DNA from: Psychrobacter frigidicola | Lineage (GTDB): Bacteria; Pseudomonadota; Gammaproteobacteria; Pseudomonadales; Moraxellaceae | DNA length: 64,000 bases | Assembly (NCBI RefSeq): GCF_007997305.1 | Contig: NZ_VORZ01000001.1 | Span: 1,364,001-1,428,000, forward strand | Reading direction: 5' to 3' | Part shown: one piece after another, positions 11,852 to 18,021 of the stretch | Layout: each line of letters opens with the position of its first letter | Position numbering within the stretch: position 1 is the stretch's first letter | Position numbers and translations under genes: made by a program | The notes under the pieces: generated by a model | Seen by the model: the letters and a program-made list of their open reading frames with translations, nothing else | What the model was told of the DNA's origin: nothing | The model's database searches: none

Positions 11852-12681
11852 AGTGGTGTCCTTATCATGTCGTGAAGGGTTTCAATGTTGGTTTAGCGCG
11901 TCGGCTGCTTAAACCAATCAATGCAAAATATTATATTCAGTCCATACAGCGCTAGCAGACCAAACCGAAAAACGGATATAAAAGTTTCATAGTACATCAT
12001 GCTCAAACTTATATTAAAAACCCTTCAGTCATTTCTAATTTTTAATATAAAAAAATCATGATTCATTAATAAGCGTAAAAATAATAATGCTTACCACAAA
12101 AACAAAGTACCAACAGCGGCTAGATTATGCTTTATCATCAGTGCATCTTATAAAAAATAGAGTTGTACGTTATAGTAATATAATGATAGAAAAATGGTCG
12201 CATAAAGCTATAAATGGCTATTTTATCTGAGCAAAAATCACTCTATTGGATGATAAAAAATCAGATAATGAGCTAAAATCCGCCTTCTCAGCACTATCAT
12301 ACTCGAAGCACTATCAATAGTAAGACAAAACGTCTCAAAAACAAAATGCATCCTACTATCAAAAAATAAAATAAACAGTAAATTACCATTTATTAAATAA
12401 ATAGTGAAGTTTTATAATAATGATACTCTATAGCACTCATACCTTTAACAGTACAATCTATCTCATTATAGTAAATGGTTAATAGTTGTTTATAAAGTGT
12501 AAGTAATCATTACAAAATTTGTTTATGCTTAAATGCTATCTACTACAGTAATTTTTTCTTTACTATTACCAACTCTCCTCATTTAAAATACTATCCAGTG
12601 AGATAAAAAAATAACGATTTCTATAAATATAGACAGATTTAATAGACTAAATAATGATTTCTAATATAGGCCCATACAATC
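11852..12681. other. Long AT-rich gap between glcB and miaE
   Basis: 830 bp with no supportable ORF, RNA gene or repeat. It must contain the divergent promoters of glcB and miaE. The stretch is strongly AT-rich and stop-dense in all frames. I cannot tell whether it is decayed coding sequence or regulatory DNA. Confidence 0.45.
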
Positions 12682-13371
12682 ATGACTACCCAAAAAACCA
12701 GTATTAGGGAATTAAAATCTCAGCAAGAAGATAGTGTGGATATTACTCAGCTACGTGTACCAATAAAAGTGGATCTCACACCTATATATGAATTTTTGGG
12801 CAGCAGAACCTCACAAGTATGGGTAGACACCGCACTCGCTAATTTGCCACTGATTATCCAAGACCATGCTAACTGCGAAAAAAAAGCCGCAGGTACGGCA
12901 ATGAACTTAATTTTTCGCTATGAGTTTTCTTATGAATTGCAATGTAAGCTTGCTCAGTTAATCCGTGAGGAGATGCTGCATTATGAGCAAGTACTCGGCA
13001 TCATGAATGAGCGTGGGCAGGATTGGGAATATCTGAGTGCGGGGCGTTATGCTAAAGGCATGCTAAAACAAAAACGCACCCATGAACCTGCGGCAATGAT
13101 AGACGTATTGATTATTGGCGCATTTATTGAAGCGCGCTCTTGTGAACGCTTTGCGGCGTTGGCAGCGGAAATTAATGATACACGTTTGGCTAAATATTAC
13201 CGTTACCTACTTAAGTCGGAAAGTCGCCATTTTGAGGATTACTTGGCGCTAGCACAATCGTTGTCTGAGGATAGTATTGATGAGCGAGTGGCGTTCTTTA
13301 AAGGTATAGAATCTGAGCTAATAACGAGTCCTGATAGTGAGCTTCGTTTTCATAGTGGAATGCCAGCTTAG
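12682..13371 (+). CDS. miaE: tRNA-(ms2io6A)-hydroxylase
   Basis: 229 residues. Hydroxylates the isopentenyl group of 2-methylthio-N6-isopentenyladenosine-37 in tRNAs reading UNN codons, using O2 and a non-haem di-iron centre. Ferritin-like four-helix motifs carrying the carboxylate and histidine ligands are visible: DHANCEKKAAG (61-71), EEMLHYEQV (Glu97, His100), FIEARSCERF (Glu150), and SESRHFEDY (Glu180, His183). A two-directional terminator follows, facing the convergent acidic-protein cluster. Family resemblance is strong over the whole length. Confidence 0.93.
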   Translation: MTTQKTSIRELKSQQEDSVDITQLRVPIKVDLTPIYEFLGSRTSQVWVDTALANLPLIIQDHANCEKKAAGTAMNLIFRYEFSYELQCKLAQLIREEMLHYEQVLGIMNERGQDWEYLSAGRYAKGMLKQKRTHEPAAMIDVLIIGAFIEARSCERFAALAAEINDTRLAKYYRYLLKSESRHFEDYLALAQSLSEDSIDERVAFFKGIESELITSPDSELRFHSGMPA

Positions 13372-13408
13372 ATTTTTCTCTAAGAGACATTCCACTATGA
13401 TAGCTGTG

Positions 13409-13466
13409 AAAAAAGCCATACTATCGCTTTATGATTAAGGCTAACGATAGTAGGGCTGATTTTTTA
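13409..13466. terminator. Bidirectional terminator between miaE and the acidic-protein cluster
   Basis: A 13-bp imperfect stem (AGCCATACTATCG at 13414-13426, CGATAGTAGGGCT at 13445-13457), with an A run on the left and a T run on the right. It can stop transcription from both convergent sides. Confidence 0.8.
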
Positions 13467-13494
13467 TATCTTAATATTAGATTTAGTATCACTT

Positions 13495-13704
13495 TTACTT
13501 TTTCATATCCGCGCTGTCGTATTGCTTATGATCTTTAGCTACATTATGCAGATCGTGATCCGGTGTAGCCCGTTCAGCCGCTGCTGGATTGACCTTTTGC
13601 AGCGCGTCATCAGGGACGACACCTTTATTGTCAGCAGCATCTCTTAGTTTATAAGTTTTGTTACTATCTTCATGACCACTATTCATATCCTTTGAATTAC
13701 TCAT
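13495..13704 (-). CDS. Small hydrophilic protein of unknown function (cluster gene 4)
   Basis: 69 residues, very hydrophilic, rich in Asp, Lys, Asn and Ala, with no cysteine, no hydrophobic core and no transmembrane segment. It is probably intrinsically disordered. A strong AAGGAGT ribosome site lies 6 nt before the ATG, so it is very likely translated. The segment KVNPAAAERATPDHDLHNVAKDH recalls low-complexity stress proteins, but I cannot assign a family. It is the last of four same-strand genes of similar composition (15120 down to 13495), 85 bp downstream of the repeat protein, and is followed by a terminator. Confidence 0.75.
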   Translation of the reverse strand: MSNSKDMNSGHEDSNKTYKLRDAADNKGVVPDDALQKVNPAAAERATPDHDLHNVAKDHKQYDSADMKK

Positions 13705-13789
13705 AATTACTCCTTATTATGGTTATTATTTGTTGAATATCTTAATAAGTCTAATGAGGTAAAGGTCTCAACATAATTCTTACCTATTC

Positions 13790-14443
13790 TTAATCTTTTT
13801 CGTCAGGGTTTAAAATACGACTCTGCGCATTATCAAGAGTGGCGTAGCGGTTCACATCGTTAATACCTTCGCTTTTCGGCTCCTCGCTACCCACCGTATC
13901 CTCGTTAATACCCTCGTCAAATGGCGTACCACCTTCTTGATCACGGCGATCTGGCTGACGGGCTGACTCATCACCCTCATTAACGTGCTCTGAATGCACT
14001 ACTCCCTCTTTAAAGGTGTCTGTACCTTTATTAACCGTTGTGTAGTCTTCAATATCTTTATCATCAACCTTATGGTTATTGATAGTGTCCCGATTATTGA
14101 TATCATCACCATCAATGTATTCTGAACCTACTACACTTTCTCGAAAAGTCTCTGCACCCTTATCTACATTAGTGTGGTCTTCAATATCATCACCGCTGGA
14201 CATAACATTATAATTATCATGATGGATGTCATCATGATTATGATCGCCATGTGCGGCATCATCACTAACATATCTGGTGCCTATCACTGTTTCTAGCAGC
14301 GCTTTGGTACCTTTTTGTTCAGTGTGGCTTTCAATGTGATTAGTACCCTCAAAATTGTCATGAGCAGGTACACTATTAGTGTCAGTATTAGCATTAGTGT
14401 CAGTAATGCGCGTTTTGGTTAATGCAGGATCTTTGGTTTCCAT
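13790..14443 (-). CDS. Acidic repeat protein of unknown function (cluster gene 3)
   Basis: 217 residues, strongly acidic and polar, rich in Asp, Glu, Asn, His and Thr, with no cysteine and no membrane segment. Three related units of about 28 residues are visible: IESHTEQKGTKALLETVIGT near residue 37, IEDHTNVDKGAETFRESVVG near 87, and IEDYTTVNKGTDTFKEGVVH near 131. Each is followed by a short acidic patch, giving a consensus I-E-x-x-T-x-x-x-K-G-x-x-x-x-x-E-x-V-x-G. A His/Asp-rich stretch (HGDHNHDDIHHDNY) lies between units 1 and 2 and might bind metal. The ribosome site is AAGGAC. Function is unknown; the rest looks disordered. Confidence 0.75.
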   Translation of the reverse strand: METKDPALTKTRITDTNANTDTNSVPAHDNFEGTNHIESHTEQKGTKALLETVIGTRYVSDDAAHGDHNHDDIHHDNYNVMSSGDDIEDHTNVDKGAETFRESVVGSEYIDGDDINNRDTINNHKVDDKDIEDYTTVNKGTDTFKEGVVHSEHVNEGDESARQPDRRDQEGGTPFDEGINEDTVGSEEPKSEGINDVNRYATLDNAQSRILNPDEKD

Positions 14444-14605
14444 GATGTTGTCCTTAAAAAATAGTGTCGTTGAATATCTTAAACTACTACCATTAAAATC
14501 TGAACAATGACTATGATTACTTTTATTTTGCTGGGTGTAATCTTTACTACTTTAGCCACTATTTTTTTAGCAGCCAATTTGATAATTGTTTTTTATCAAT
14601 CGTTC

Positions 14606-14875
14606 TTATATATCATTCCCTTCTTGGCTTAAGTTAAAGGCGCTCAAATCACCAACGTTTTTACCGCCATCAGGAATATCTTCATCTTTACGTGGGTCAG
14701 CATAAATCTCATCGGTTTCTTGAGATTTTTGCTGAGGTCCCTTTATATCTGGATCATTCTTACGCCCTTCATAGCTACCTTCTGGGTTTTCTGGCGCTAA
14801 AGCCGCAGGATCATCAACAAATACTTCTTCTTCGTTGTTCACAGTTTTTTTATTGATTTCTGGCTGAATAGTCAT
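14606..14875 (-). CDS. Small acidic hydrophilic protein of unknown function (cluster gene 2)
   Basis: 89 residues, rich in Glu, Asp, Pro, Asn and Gly, with no cysteine, no signal peptide and no hydrophobic segment. Disorder is likely along its whole length. AAGGAT lies about 7 nt before the ATG. The Pro/Gly/Asp-rich middle (GSYEGRKNDPDIKGPQQK) has a low-complexity look, but I recognise no family. It lies 74 bp after the 56-codon gene and 162 bp before the repeat protein, all on one strand. Confidence 0.72.
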   Translation of the reverse strand: MTIQPEINKKTVNNEEEVFVDDPAALAPENPEGSYEGRKNDPDIKGPQQKSQETDEIYADPRKDEDIPDGGKNVGDLSAFNLSQEGNDI

Positions 14876-14949
14876 AGCAAATCCTTCGCATGTTTAGTAT
14901 TACAGGTCATTTATTTTTTAAATCTATTTAAACTTTATTAGGTACTCAA

Positions 14950-15120
14950 TTAATCGTCAGTACGGACTTCTGCATCGATAAAAGGGGTTGCCTGCTCTTC
15001 GGTTAAGGGTTCTGGTTTATCGGTTTGTTTTTTGTCTTGCAAGTTTTTTTCGATTTGCTGTACGTTTACATTATCAGCTGCTTGTTTAATGTCTGATGTA
15101 TCATCATTATTTGTGCTCAT
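14950..15120 (-). CDS. 56-residue hydrophilic protein (cluster gene 1)
   Basis: An easily missed ORF of 56 residues, starting MSTNNDDTSDIKQAADNVNV and ending PFIDAEVRTDD. An AAAGGC ribosome site stands about 8 nt before the ATG. It is acidic and Gln/Asn/Asp-rich with no hydrophobic core, so similar in character to the three genes downstream on the same strand. It is the first gene of the cluster, and the promoter should lie at 15121-15280. No family was recognised. Confidence 0.65.
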   Translation of the reverse strand: MSTNNDDTSDIKQAADNVNVQQIEKNLQDKKQTDKPEPLTEEQATPFIDAEVRTDD

Positions 15121-15282
15121 CGCAAATGCCTTTCATTATTTATAATTTTAGAGATATGAACTGCTTAAACTTTTCTTGTCTAATCTCGATTATAGATATA
15201 AATTGAACTTATAAGCCAGTGTATTGCAGTATTAATATGTGAGTATGTGTGAGGTTGAAATATAGTTTGTAACCAATAAAAG

Positions 15283-15320
15283 AAAAACCAAGCTCAGACT
15301 GTAGCCTGAGCTTGGTTTTT
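15283..15320 (-). terminator. Rho-independent terminator of ppk1
   Basis: A perfect 15-bp stem (AAAAACCAAGCTCAG / CTGAGCTTGGTTTTT, 8-nt loop). It lies about 90 bp past the ppk1 stop and separates ppk1 from the acidic-protein cluster. It is symmetric, so could act both ways. Confidence 0.9.
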
Positions 15321-15411
15321 GGTGATTAAAAAGTTCTGTATTAGAGATTAGATATGTAGGTTCTATCTATTTAGATAATTCCAGTTAGATCACTCTCATT
15401 CTACTCACTTT

Positions 15412-18021
15412 TTATTCGCCAACGCGGTTGATGACTTTTAATAGGTAATCTTGAGCAATATGTATTGGTTCATTCTCTGCGGGCTGATTTTGCTGCCAGT
15501 ACCCTTTACCATCTAGCGTCCACGATTGCATATTATCTTGTAGATAGTTTATCAATCCGTCCTGATAGATTTGTTTAAATAAGGCTTTATCCTCAATCGG
15601 GAACGCGACTTCAACACGGTGGAACAGATTGCGATCCATCCAGTCGGCACTCGCGCAATACATACGCTCATCACCGCTATTATAAAAATAATAGACGCGG
15701 GTATGCTCTAAGAAACGACCGATAATAGAACGTACGGTGATATTTTCTGATAAGCCTTGCACTTGCGGACGCAGACAACACATAGAGCGAAGAATCAGCT
15801 CAATCTTGACGCCTGCTTGCGAGGCATCATAAAGCTTATCAATCAGGCGACGTTCAGTCAGTGCATTCACCTTAATGATGATATGAGCACGCTTGCCTGC
15901 TTTGGCATGGGCAATTTCTTCATCAATAAAGCTCATGAGCTTGTCATGCAAGGTAAACGGCGCATGCAATAGCTTTTTAAGATTGGCAGGTTTACCCATA
16001 CCCGTCAGCTCTTGGAAGATTTTATGCACGTCCTCTGAGATATCAGGATCGGCTGTGAATAGGCCATAATCGGTATAGACTTTTGCATTGGCTGCGTGAT
16101 AGTTACCAGTGCCCAAATGCACGTAGCGGCGAATACGATTATCTTCACGGCGGACGATGAGCATGAGCTTAGCGTGGGTCTTGTAGCCAACAATGCCATA
16201 CACTACTACTGCGCCGGCTTCCTGCAAGAAGTTGGCGACTGCAATGTTAGACGCTTCATCAAAGCGCGCACGCAGCTCAATAACCGCGGTGACTTCTTTA
16301 CCATTACGAGCAGCTGCAGCAAGCGCTTTAACAATCTCTGAGTTGGTACCAGAGCGGTATAAGGTTTGTTTAATCGCTAAGACTTTTGGATCGTTTGCCG
16401 CTTGCCACAATAAATTGATGACTGGAGTGAACGAATCAAAAGGATGATGTACTAGCACATCGCGCTTGCGCATAGCGGCAAACATACTCGTGGTTTTATC
16501 CAGCTTATCAATATCACGACGAAATGCTTTAGGGACAATGTGCGTAAAAGGCTGATAGCGCAGTTCTGGAATATTAAAGTCAAACAATAGACGCGTTAAA
16601 TTCACCGGGCCATTGACACGGTAGAGCTGGTTATTATGCAGGCCAAACTCATTCAATAAGTAATCGCTGATGGGCGTTGGGCAATCGGTAGTCACCTCTA
16701 AACGTACTTTGTCACCAAAGCGGCGGTTTTCAAGCTCGCCCTCTAATGCCTTGGCAATATCATCCACATCATCCGCTAAATCTAAATCCGCATTACGCGT
16801 CAGTCTAAATTGATGACAACCAGTAACATTCATGCCCGGAAATAACTCACCGATGTGCTCATGTATAACGGCTGAGAGCATGACATGGTGCTCTTTACCG
16901 CCAGTTAACTCATCTGGCAGACGAATCACGCGCGGTAGACTGCGCGGTGCAGGAACGATAGCCAGATTAATATCACGACCAAAGGCATCTTTGCCTTCTA
17001 ACGTCGCAATAAAGTTTAAACTTTTATTAACCAATCGTGGAAATGGATGCGCCGGATCAATGCTAATCGGAGTCAATACAGGGGAGACTTGCTCAATAAA
17101 GTAGCGCTTCATCCATGCTGACTGTTCCGCATTAAGCTCATCGCGCTTCAGATAACGAATATCTTGTTTCGCTAACGCTGGCAGGATATCTTCATTAAGA
17201 ATACGGTATTGCTCAGCAATAGCCTTGTGAGTGATTGCTGATATCTCATTAAGGACTTCACTTGGGCGCATACCGTGCGGGGTATCAGCAACGTTGCCAA
17301 GATTCAGCTTTTGCATGATTCCAGCCACACGGATTTCAAAAAATTCGTCCATATTGGAGGAGAAAATAATCAAAAAGAATAAGCGTTCTAGTAATGGATG
17401 ACGTGGACTGGCCGCTTGCGCTAAAACCCGCAGATGAAACTGCAGTAAGGACAAGTCACGGTTGATATAACTGTTTGGCGAATAAGTGCCATCTTCTGAA
17501 CGCTGCCATCCAATCTGAGTCAGCGTGGTCGTACTATCTTTTGCTTTTATTGACACTGACTTTGATATGGTAGGCGTTGAAGTTTTTGGAGTGGCTTTTG
17601 TTGATACCGTTGCTAATGTTGTTGATGCCTCCTTGACTGAGGCCTTTGGTGCTTTAGCTGCTGGTGTAGTCTTGACAGTAGAGGATCTTGGTTTTCTGAC
17701 AGTTTTAGATTTTTCAGGCGTGGTCAGTGCAGTAATCGACATATCAGTAACCTGAGTGTGGGCGTTAATGCTTGCAGAGTCGCTGTCTTTAGCATCACTG
17801 TCTTTTAAGGCGCTGTTTGTAGAAACATTAACATTGTCAGTAGGTCTATTCTTATCAATTTGCGTTTCTATATTGTTTTGAGCGACAATTTGAGTGTCTT
17901 TTTTTTGCATGATTTTTTCTTGATTAGGTTTTTCCTGAATGTTACTTTTTTCTTGATTGTTCTCTTTTTCAGAATAGCTATTTTTAACACTTGTACTCTG
18001 GTCATTATTTGCGCTGGTCAT
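15412..18021 (-). CDS. ppk1: Polyphosphate kinase 1 with a long disordered N-terminal extension
   Basis: 869 residues. Reversibly polymerises the gamma-phosphate of ATP into inorganic polyphosphate. The catalytic core starts near residue 175 ([16 protein letters not shown]) and contains the typical [32 protein letters not shown] and the phosphohistidine region YKTHAKLML. The core alone matches the usual length of about 690. The first 170 or so residues are an extra low-complexity segment, first Asn/Gln/Glu/Lys-rich, then Thr/Ala/Lys/Ser-rich ([23 protein letters not shown]). The start at 18021 is supported by a GGGGAGAAG ribosome site, so the extension is probably made. Its role is unknown. 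Polyphosphate synthesis fits general stress and phosphate storage. Confidence 0.93.

Follow-up and report, generated by a model that had tools for sequence, protein, structure and literature searches.

The window analysed here, a stretch of 64,000 nucleotides from Psychrobacter frigidicola, carries four consecutive small genes, P1 to P4, on the minus strand between ppk, which encodes polyphosphate kinase, and miaE, which encodes tRNA-(ms[2]io[6]A)-hydroxylase. P1 (positions 14950 to 15120, 56 aa), P2 (14606 to 14875, 89 aa), P3 (13790 to 14443, 217 aa) and P4 (13495 to 13704, 69 aa) are each preceded in the window by a Shine-Dalgarno-like stretch that is kept in relatives, which confirms the original prediction of four same-strand reading frames with good ribosome sites. 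The conserved upstream neighbour is ppk (15412 to 18021, minus strand; Pfam PF17941, PF13090, PF02503 and PF13089), and miaE (12682 to 13371, plus strand; PF06175, E 5.2e-69) lies downstream in convergent orientation. Between ppk and P1 lies a strongly conserved promoter block of 58 bp (15216 to 15273, minus strand), running from GTTACAAACT... to ...ACACTGG, followed by a −10 element, TATAAT (15189 to 15194, minus strand), at a fixed distance from the block and without a consensus −35.

The terminators that had been predicted to bound the four genes were found on both sides. Just 5′ of the promoter block, an intrinsic terminator of ppk (15283 to 15320, minus strand) forms a 17-pair stem; its evidence is the length of this stem and not the number of sites, because the scan gave 4 terminator-like sites versus 3.9 in shuffled sequences. 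In the convergent P4/miaE gap, a hairpin at about 13414 to 13457, assigned to neither strand, folds well (z −4.2 for the whole 100-nt stretch) and is absent from the terminator pattern scan; from its modelled fold it is probably a terminator for both convergent genes. A structured RNA at the locus was rejected, there being no Rfam match in window positions 12000 to 16500 at E 1.

Cysteine is absent from all four window proteins, as had been stated, and their GRAVY values are −1.37 (P1), −1.24 (P2), −1.26 (P3) and −1.36 (P4). The description of the set as acidic holds for P1 to P3 (pI 4.1 to 4.4) and fails for P4, which is near neutral in the window strain (pI 6.0). Among 51 non-overlapping window reading frames of at least 80 aa, P3 and P2 take the top two places for hydrophilicity, a ranking that excludes P1 and P4 by their length. 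The apparent disorder of the proteins is upheld by prediction: on a charge-hydropathy plot P1 to P4 of the window all fall on the disordered side of the line, as do all orthologues computed from a hand-picked set of 40 loci (36 of P1, 35 of P2, 38 of P3 and 27 of P4). AlphaFold runs, which covered P2 and P3, predicted no fold for either protein, with a mean pLDDT of 63.9 and pTM of 0.16 for P2 (alignment n = 37; no helix of four or more residues and no strand) and 54.1 and 0.14 for P3 (n = 43; two 4-residue helices and nothing longer).

No family had been recognised for any of the four, and none emerged here. A scan of window P1 to P4 against Pfam and NCBIfam found no family above its cut-off, the best Pfam matches (SWIB, DUF4295 and ABC1) lying far under threshold; PHROGs gave no match for P1 to P4 at E 0.1, and profiles of P2, P3 and P4 gave none among solved structures at E 0.1. 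Weak Pfam matches of P4 orthologues at E 0.1 include PF02201 (SWIB) in 9 of 37 (best E 0.0053), a match that is under the cut-off in window P4. Homologues in an annotated known system, which were looked for, did not appear within the libraries scanned. Profile comparisons of P2 with P3 and of P3 with P4 showed no similarity, and a common origin of the four is not supported in these compared pairs. A phage or mobile origin was rejected on the lack of a PHROGs match and on the fixed chromosomal position.

Relatives were searched for in 57 genomes, comprising 36 of the window's genus (its own included) and 21 of other families. Orthologues are present in 32 (P1), 34 (P2), 34 (P3) and 30 (P4) of the 36 genus genomes, own genome included, and conservation thus extends well beyond one strain; none was found in the 21 genomes of other families. 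The median dN/dS is 0.106 for P1, 0.092 for P2, 0.062 for P3 and 0.068 for P4 (117 to 127 pairs per gene, dS 0.15 to 1.0). P1 to P4 are real genes under purifying selection, and spurious reading frames are ruled out by dN/dS and the orthologues. A P3 profile scan of an 84,980-species collection, made by a short-pattern method, returned at least 78 loci; among the matches listed, 76 are titled Psychrobacter, one Moraxella atlantae and one Streptomyces cinereus. These 78 were collected by way of P3, which is therefore present by construction. The order P1-P2-P3-P4 is seen in 58 of the 78 matches listed, the others being P1-P2-P3 (10), P2-P3-P4 (6), P1-P3 (2), P1-P3-P4 (1) and P3 alone (1).

Several individual loci stand out. 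The record titled Streptomyces cinereus JCM 3040 (L252, BMPS01000004.1) carries a locus of Moraxellaceae type, groups with Moraxella atlantae on a ppk tree and is probably mislabelled or contaminated. At L098 (G098:C1:2031500-2040500), P1 and P2 are fused in a 104-aa frame without the C-terminal motif of P1, and P4 was not found. At L100 (G135:C1:1401000-1410000), P4 is a short remnant, and between it and miaE lies a 176-aa protein, which we take to resemble secreted proteins of a haem-binding type.

Among the matches listed, both ppk and miaE flank the locus in 75 of 78, and the locus lies downstream of ppk in 77 of 78, the exception (L225) being on a contig that ends 60 bases before P2. This position would suit proteins that work with ppk by organising or binding polyphosphate granules or Ppk itself. 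We regard such a partnership as improbable: in the window a strong terminator and a separate promoter split ppk from P1, acidic proteins should bind polyphosphate poorly, and the fixed position may reflect vertical inheritance, the gene order of mtg, ppk, miaE and malate synthase being kept as well.

Each of the four proteins contains short, near-invariant segments. P1 carries AA(E/D)..(D/N)..QI.KNL and, in most orthologues, a C-terminal motif, T(P/S)FI....RTD. P2 has the constrained core YEGRK..P.I.GPQQ.SQETDE(I/V)Y.DPRK, and the core of P4 reads DA.DN.G(I/V)VPDDALQKVNPAAAER.T.DHD.HNVAK, within which DDALQKVNPAAAER.T.DHD.H is almost fixed. P3 is conserved at its start, METKDPALTKT, and at its C-terminal end, HVN...ARQPDRRDQ.G..FD..IN...NRYA..DNAQ.R.LNPDEKD; the two ends are joined by a hypervariable linker that in the window holds three repeat units and a His/Asp-rich stretch. 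With the window sequence as reference and gaps scored as differences, mean identity is 74% over the first ten residues of P3, 56 to 93% over the last 87 (means by ten) and 3 to 16% over residues 21 to 130. The repeat unit, KG(T/A)..(F/L).E.V, is present in three copies in window P3; counted with the search pattern, a single copy is present in 61 of 79 P3 proteins, none in 14, two in 3 and three in that of the window only.

The His/Asp-rich stretch at residues 65 to 82 of P3 (HGDHNHDDIHHDNYNVMS), which recurs in a few other P3 proteins, could bind metal ions. A metal-buffering function of this linker in P3 and its kin is nonetheless very improbable: the five histidines that window P3 holds within 20 residues from residue 65 speak for it, as do 5 of 79 P3 proteins that reach this density, but the remaining 74 of 79 lie below it, and no such stretch is apparent by eye in window P1, P2 or P4.

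Judged from the alignments, the near-invariant segments in each of P1 to P4 represent a constraint beyond what bulk hydrophilicity needs, and they suggest specific binding over general protection. Specific binding as the main function is accordingly the chief rival to a role as protectants, one that we take seriously while doubting it. On this rival account the four are specific binders whose segments each fold on a defined partner, for instance RNA polymerase, the ribosome, an enzyme or one of the other three proteins, and they would make up a regulatory or hibernation module. It draws on the near-invariant blocks, on the low dN/dS values and on the retention by P3 of its two ends and not of its middle; against it, the Pfam, NCBIfam, PHROGs and structure searches and the AlphaFold models of P2 and P3 revealed neither a partner nor a fold or catalytic motif, and the composition of the proteins is that of protective hydrophilic proteins.

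Specific binding also gains from the recurrence of the P1 segment in otherwise different proteins of another genus of the family (g36), which from its size within the family is probably Acinetobacter. The P1 profile found five weak matches in g36 (E 1.4e-4 to 4.5e-3 in a search of 249 genomes), all in Cys-free proteins of 119 to 134 aa (L309 to L313; GRAVY −1.37 to −1.45) that sit in two different chromosomal settings and share a PAPFI ending outside the profile-matched stretch. These same proteins also have (F/L)S.(Q/E)Q(L/V)EGLT(D/N)S as a second conserved segment. Comparison of the P1 profile with the g36 proteins gave a probability of 88.5 and an E-value of 2.7e-6 that flatters, because the g36 proteins had been preselected by the first P1 search. 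A combined profile hit 11 of 390 genomes drawn from the order, every one belonging to the window's genus, with no match in G098 (also of that genus) or in two g36 genomes listed, so that the P1-like module was not seen outside the family in these 390 genomes. A P4 match in g36 (G249, E 0.0026) was taken as chance; it contains a stop, and its region holds genes that are presumably antiporter- or NADH-dehydrogenase-like.

The promoter block upstream of P1, the constrained segments and the restriction of the set to one clade of Moraxellaceae had all been missed in the original prediction. The block has the consensus GTTACAAACTGTCTTGTAACCTCACATTTATTCACATATTGATACGGCAGTACACTGG. A pattern-free sliding scan of the ppk–P1 gap returned the same 58-mer as its best stretch, with 94% mean identity (29 loci against one reference locus) versus a gap median of 53%; the 30 loci were a non-redundant pick from the 78 matches listed and were all chosen with the block, so the 94% figure describes carriers only. 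The core pattern used to collect the sequences biases its own columns of the block, but invariance is just as high in the GTTACAAA end and the −10, which lie beyond that core. In the same loci the best 58-mer reaches 85% in the miaE/malate synthase gap, 60% upstream of ppk, 44% between P2 and P3 and 41% between P3 and P4, the last two gaps being short; no element comparable to the block was seen on scanning these two. That the four genes form a co-regulated set, as originally proposed, is supported by inference from the fixed gene order, the single conserved promoter and the want of a comparable element in the P2–P3 and P3–P4 gaps. The 85% stretch is a second conserved intergenic element, a 58-mer within window positions 11852 to 12681 in the gap between miaE and malate synthase G (mean over 28 loci). 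Because this element upstream of malate synthase G reaches such a value, the block is not the only element of its kind.

The −10 (TATAAT or TATACT) stands at an identical distance from the block in 46 of 48 non-redundant sequences, and the distance from the block interior to the annotated P1 start varies from 27 to 373 nt, some annotated starts being uncertain. Since the one distance is fixed and the other variable, the block's behaviour is that of a promoter, not of a leader RNA. A consensus −35 is absent: the consensus reads GGTGAA at the hexamer lying 17 bp upstream of the −10, and the block stops at the position expected for a −35. A layout that lacks a −35 and has an upstream site is typical of activator-dependent promoters. 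When split every 10 bp, the block can be read as a series of TTACA/TCACA-like half-sites, which are known from OmpR-family arrays. The periodicity z-scores are 2.4 at lag 10, 0.2 at lag 11, 3.2 at lag 12, 1.8 at lag 20 and 2.7 at lag 30, and the 10-bp phasing signal thus appears modest, with lag 12 above lag 10. An identity as a DnaA box was rejected, as TTATTCACA fits the DnaA box consensus used for comparison in many species and the window has ATACTCACA. For BfmR, a candidate regulator, no published binding site was found with which to compare the block, the available part of PMC4888885 included.

The block is a single-copy element. With at most 3 mismatches allowed, 67 of 80 genus genomes contain a single copy of its 29-bp inner pattern and the other 13 contain none, and a reversed control pattern had zero occurrences in the same 80. 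A 92-position sequence model run on 149 genomes of the family with strict filters, which lose weak matches, found 36 sites of at least 41 bits, all among the 41 genus genomes, and the next-best score was 20.4 bits; a dispersed repeat or regulon site was rejected on these grounds. Fourteen weaker block-like sites were inspected, and several of them lie inside genes. Weak echoes of the block (CACATAATGACACGG...) stand upstream of a gene of the same type in two genomes (L275 and L285), a gene we take to be ribonuclease-G-like, and another weak site (L281) is upstream of what is presumably a solute-binding-protein-like gene; all of these are treated as putative sites.

A quick tree of ppk, with 77 rows and weak support at many forks, explains the present distribution with two changes for the block, five for P4 and four for P1. 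In the main clade of 68 rows, which includes the window, the block occurs in 68 of 68 (called with up to 9 substitutions in 38) and P4 in 63 of 68. The nine rows outside this clade comprise seven Psychrobacter, P. phenylpyruvicus among them, and two that are Moraxella-like. Among the nine, P. pygoscelis alone carries P4, together with a block that has diverged by 7 substitutions. The remaining eight, basal or Moraxella-like, are without block and P4, but all of them retain P3 and seven retain P1, so that the block is not needed for persistence of the genes. In four Moraxella-like genomes of genus g28 (L086 to L089) a different reading frame of 116 to 207 aa takes the place of P2; its product plots as disordered, is less hydrophilic (GRAVY −0.61 to −0.78) and is missed by the P2 profile. 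About 1.5 kb past ppk at 16 loci of genera g36 and g31, of the same family, held no reading frame matching P1 to P4. By sequence comparison, the P1–P4 set is restricted to one clade of Moraxellaceae. The available part of PMC8546975 places Psychrobacter in one clade with M. atlantae, M. osloensis, M. boevrei and M. lincolnii and describes derived Psychrobacter as having left warm-host ancestors; the distribution of the block and P4 fits this published picture of the Psychrobacter–Moraxella clade.

The reading that we tentatively prefer, and which falls somewhat short of being probable, is that P1 to P4 constitute a stress-induced operon of hydrophilin-like protectants equipped with specific docking segments. 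The four intrinsically disordered proteins would be expressed from one transcript, which RNA polymerase would begin at a promoter of sigma-70 type whose −10 is TATAAT and which lacks a good −35. In place of the −35 contact, a regulator, possibly of the OmpR type, would occupy the 58-bp block and induce the operon in response to stress; the likeliest triggers are osmotic stress, desiccation, freezing or stationary phase. The proteins would then accumulate in the cytosol, where their charged, non-folding linkers may hold hydration and stop aggregation and their short constrained segments may dock on particular partners. A search of the open-access literature by titles and the starts of abstracts found no paper on P1 to P4 and no expression, proteomic or mutant data for them. 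Protection of the cell against drying, salt or freezing is their probable role. A more far-reaching version, which we consider unlikely, would have four unrelated disordered proteins form a clade-specific stress operon of client-specific chaperones, each with its own docking segments, and would have the single-copy, near-immutable promoter arise with P4 at about the time when the main lineage of Psychrobacter parted from its host-associated basal relatives, helping the genus to colonise habitats that are cold, salty and dry.

The usual view of disordered protective proteins is that they conserve their composition and not their sequence. P1 to P4, four adjacent disordered families served by a single promoter, conserve both, and among five intergenic stretches tested in this region the promoter is the most conserved. 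The set allows a direct test of whether bacterial disordered protectants act by bulk hydration or by specific docking, and the promoter block could serve as a regulatory handle on survival under stress in this genus, whose tolerance of cold and salt is well known. Desiccation of Acinetobacter, of the same family, is a medical concern.

Comparison with known systems places P1 to P4 near several of them. OmpR/PhoB-type promoters likewise have TTACA/TCACA-like half-sites reaching the −35 position, no −35 hexamer and a fixed distance to the −10, the spacing seen here in 46 of 48 sequences; the block differs in its modest 10-bp phasing (lag 10 z 2.4, lag 12 z 3.2). LEA and other Pfam stress families are similarly hydrophilic and disordered with internal repeats, of which window P3 has three units, whereas window P1 to P4 have no Pfam match above cut-off. 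Hydrophilins, as defined after Garay-Arroyo et al. in the available part of PMC7448490, have a hydrophilicity index above 1, applied here as GRAVY below −1, and more than 6% glycine. All four window proteins are hydrophilic enough (−1.24 to −1.37), and P2 and P3 also exceed 6% glycine (7.9% and 7.4%); the proposed analogy with hydrophilins therefore holds for these two small, predicted disordered proteins. It fails on glycine for P1 (0%) and P4 (2.9%), which are for that reason not filed as hydrophilins, and more than 6% glycine is reached by 0 of 36 P1 orthologues (maximum 5.8%) and 0 of 27 P4 orthologues (maximum 5.3%). The full rule is satisfied by 20 of 35 P2 and 11 of 38 P3 orthologues. 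The set further differs from hydrophilins in having four families per operon and a sequence constraint that exceeds bulk hydrophilicity. DtpA and DtpB of Acinetobacter baumannii are described in the available parts of PMC13232832 and PMC12742793 as hydrophilins supporting desiccation tolerance, encoded in a cluster that holds katE and dtpC, whereas the neighbours of P1 to P4 are ppk and miaE. By this description they resemble the products of the present locus as disordered protective proteins of the same bacterial family encoded in a stress-gene cluster, and because they support desiccation tolerance in Acinetobacter, disordered protectants are in use within Moraxellaceae.
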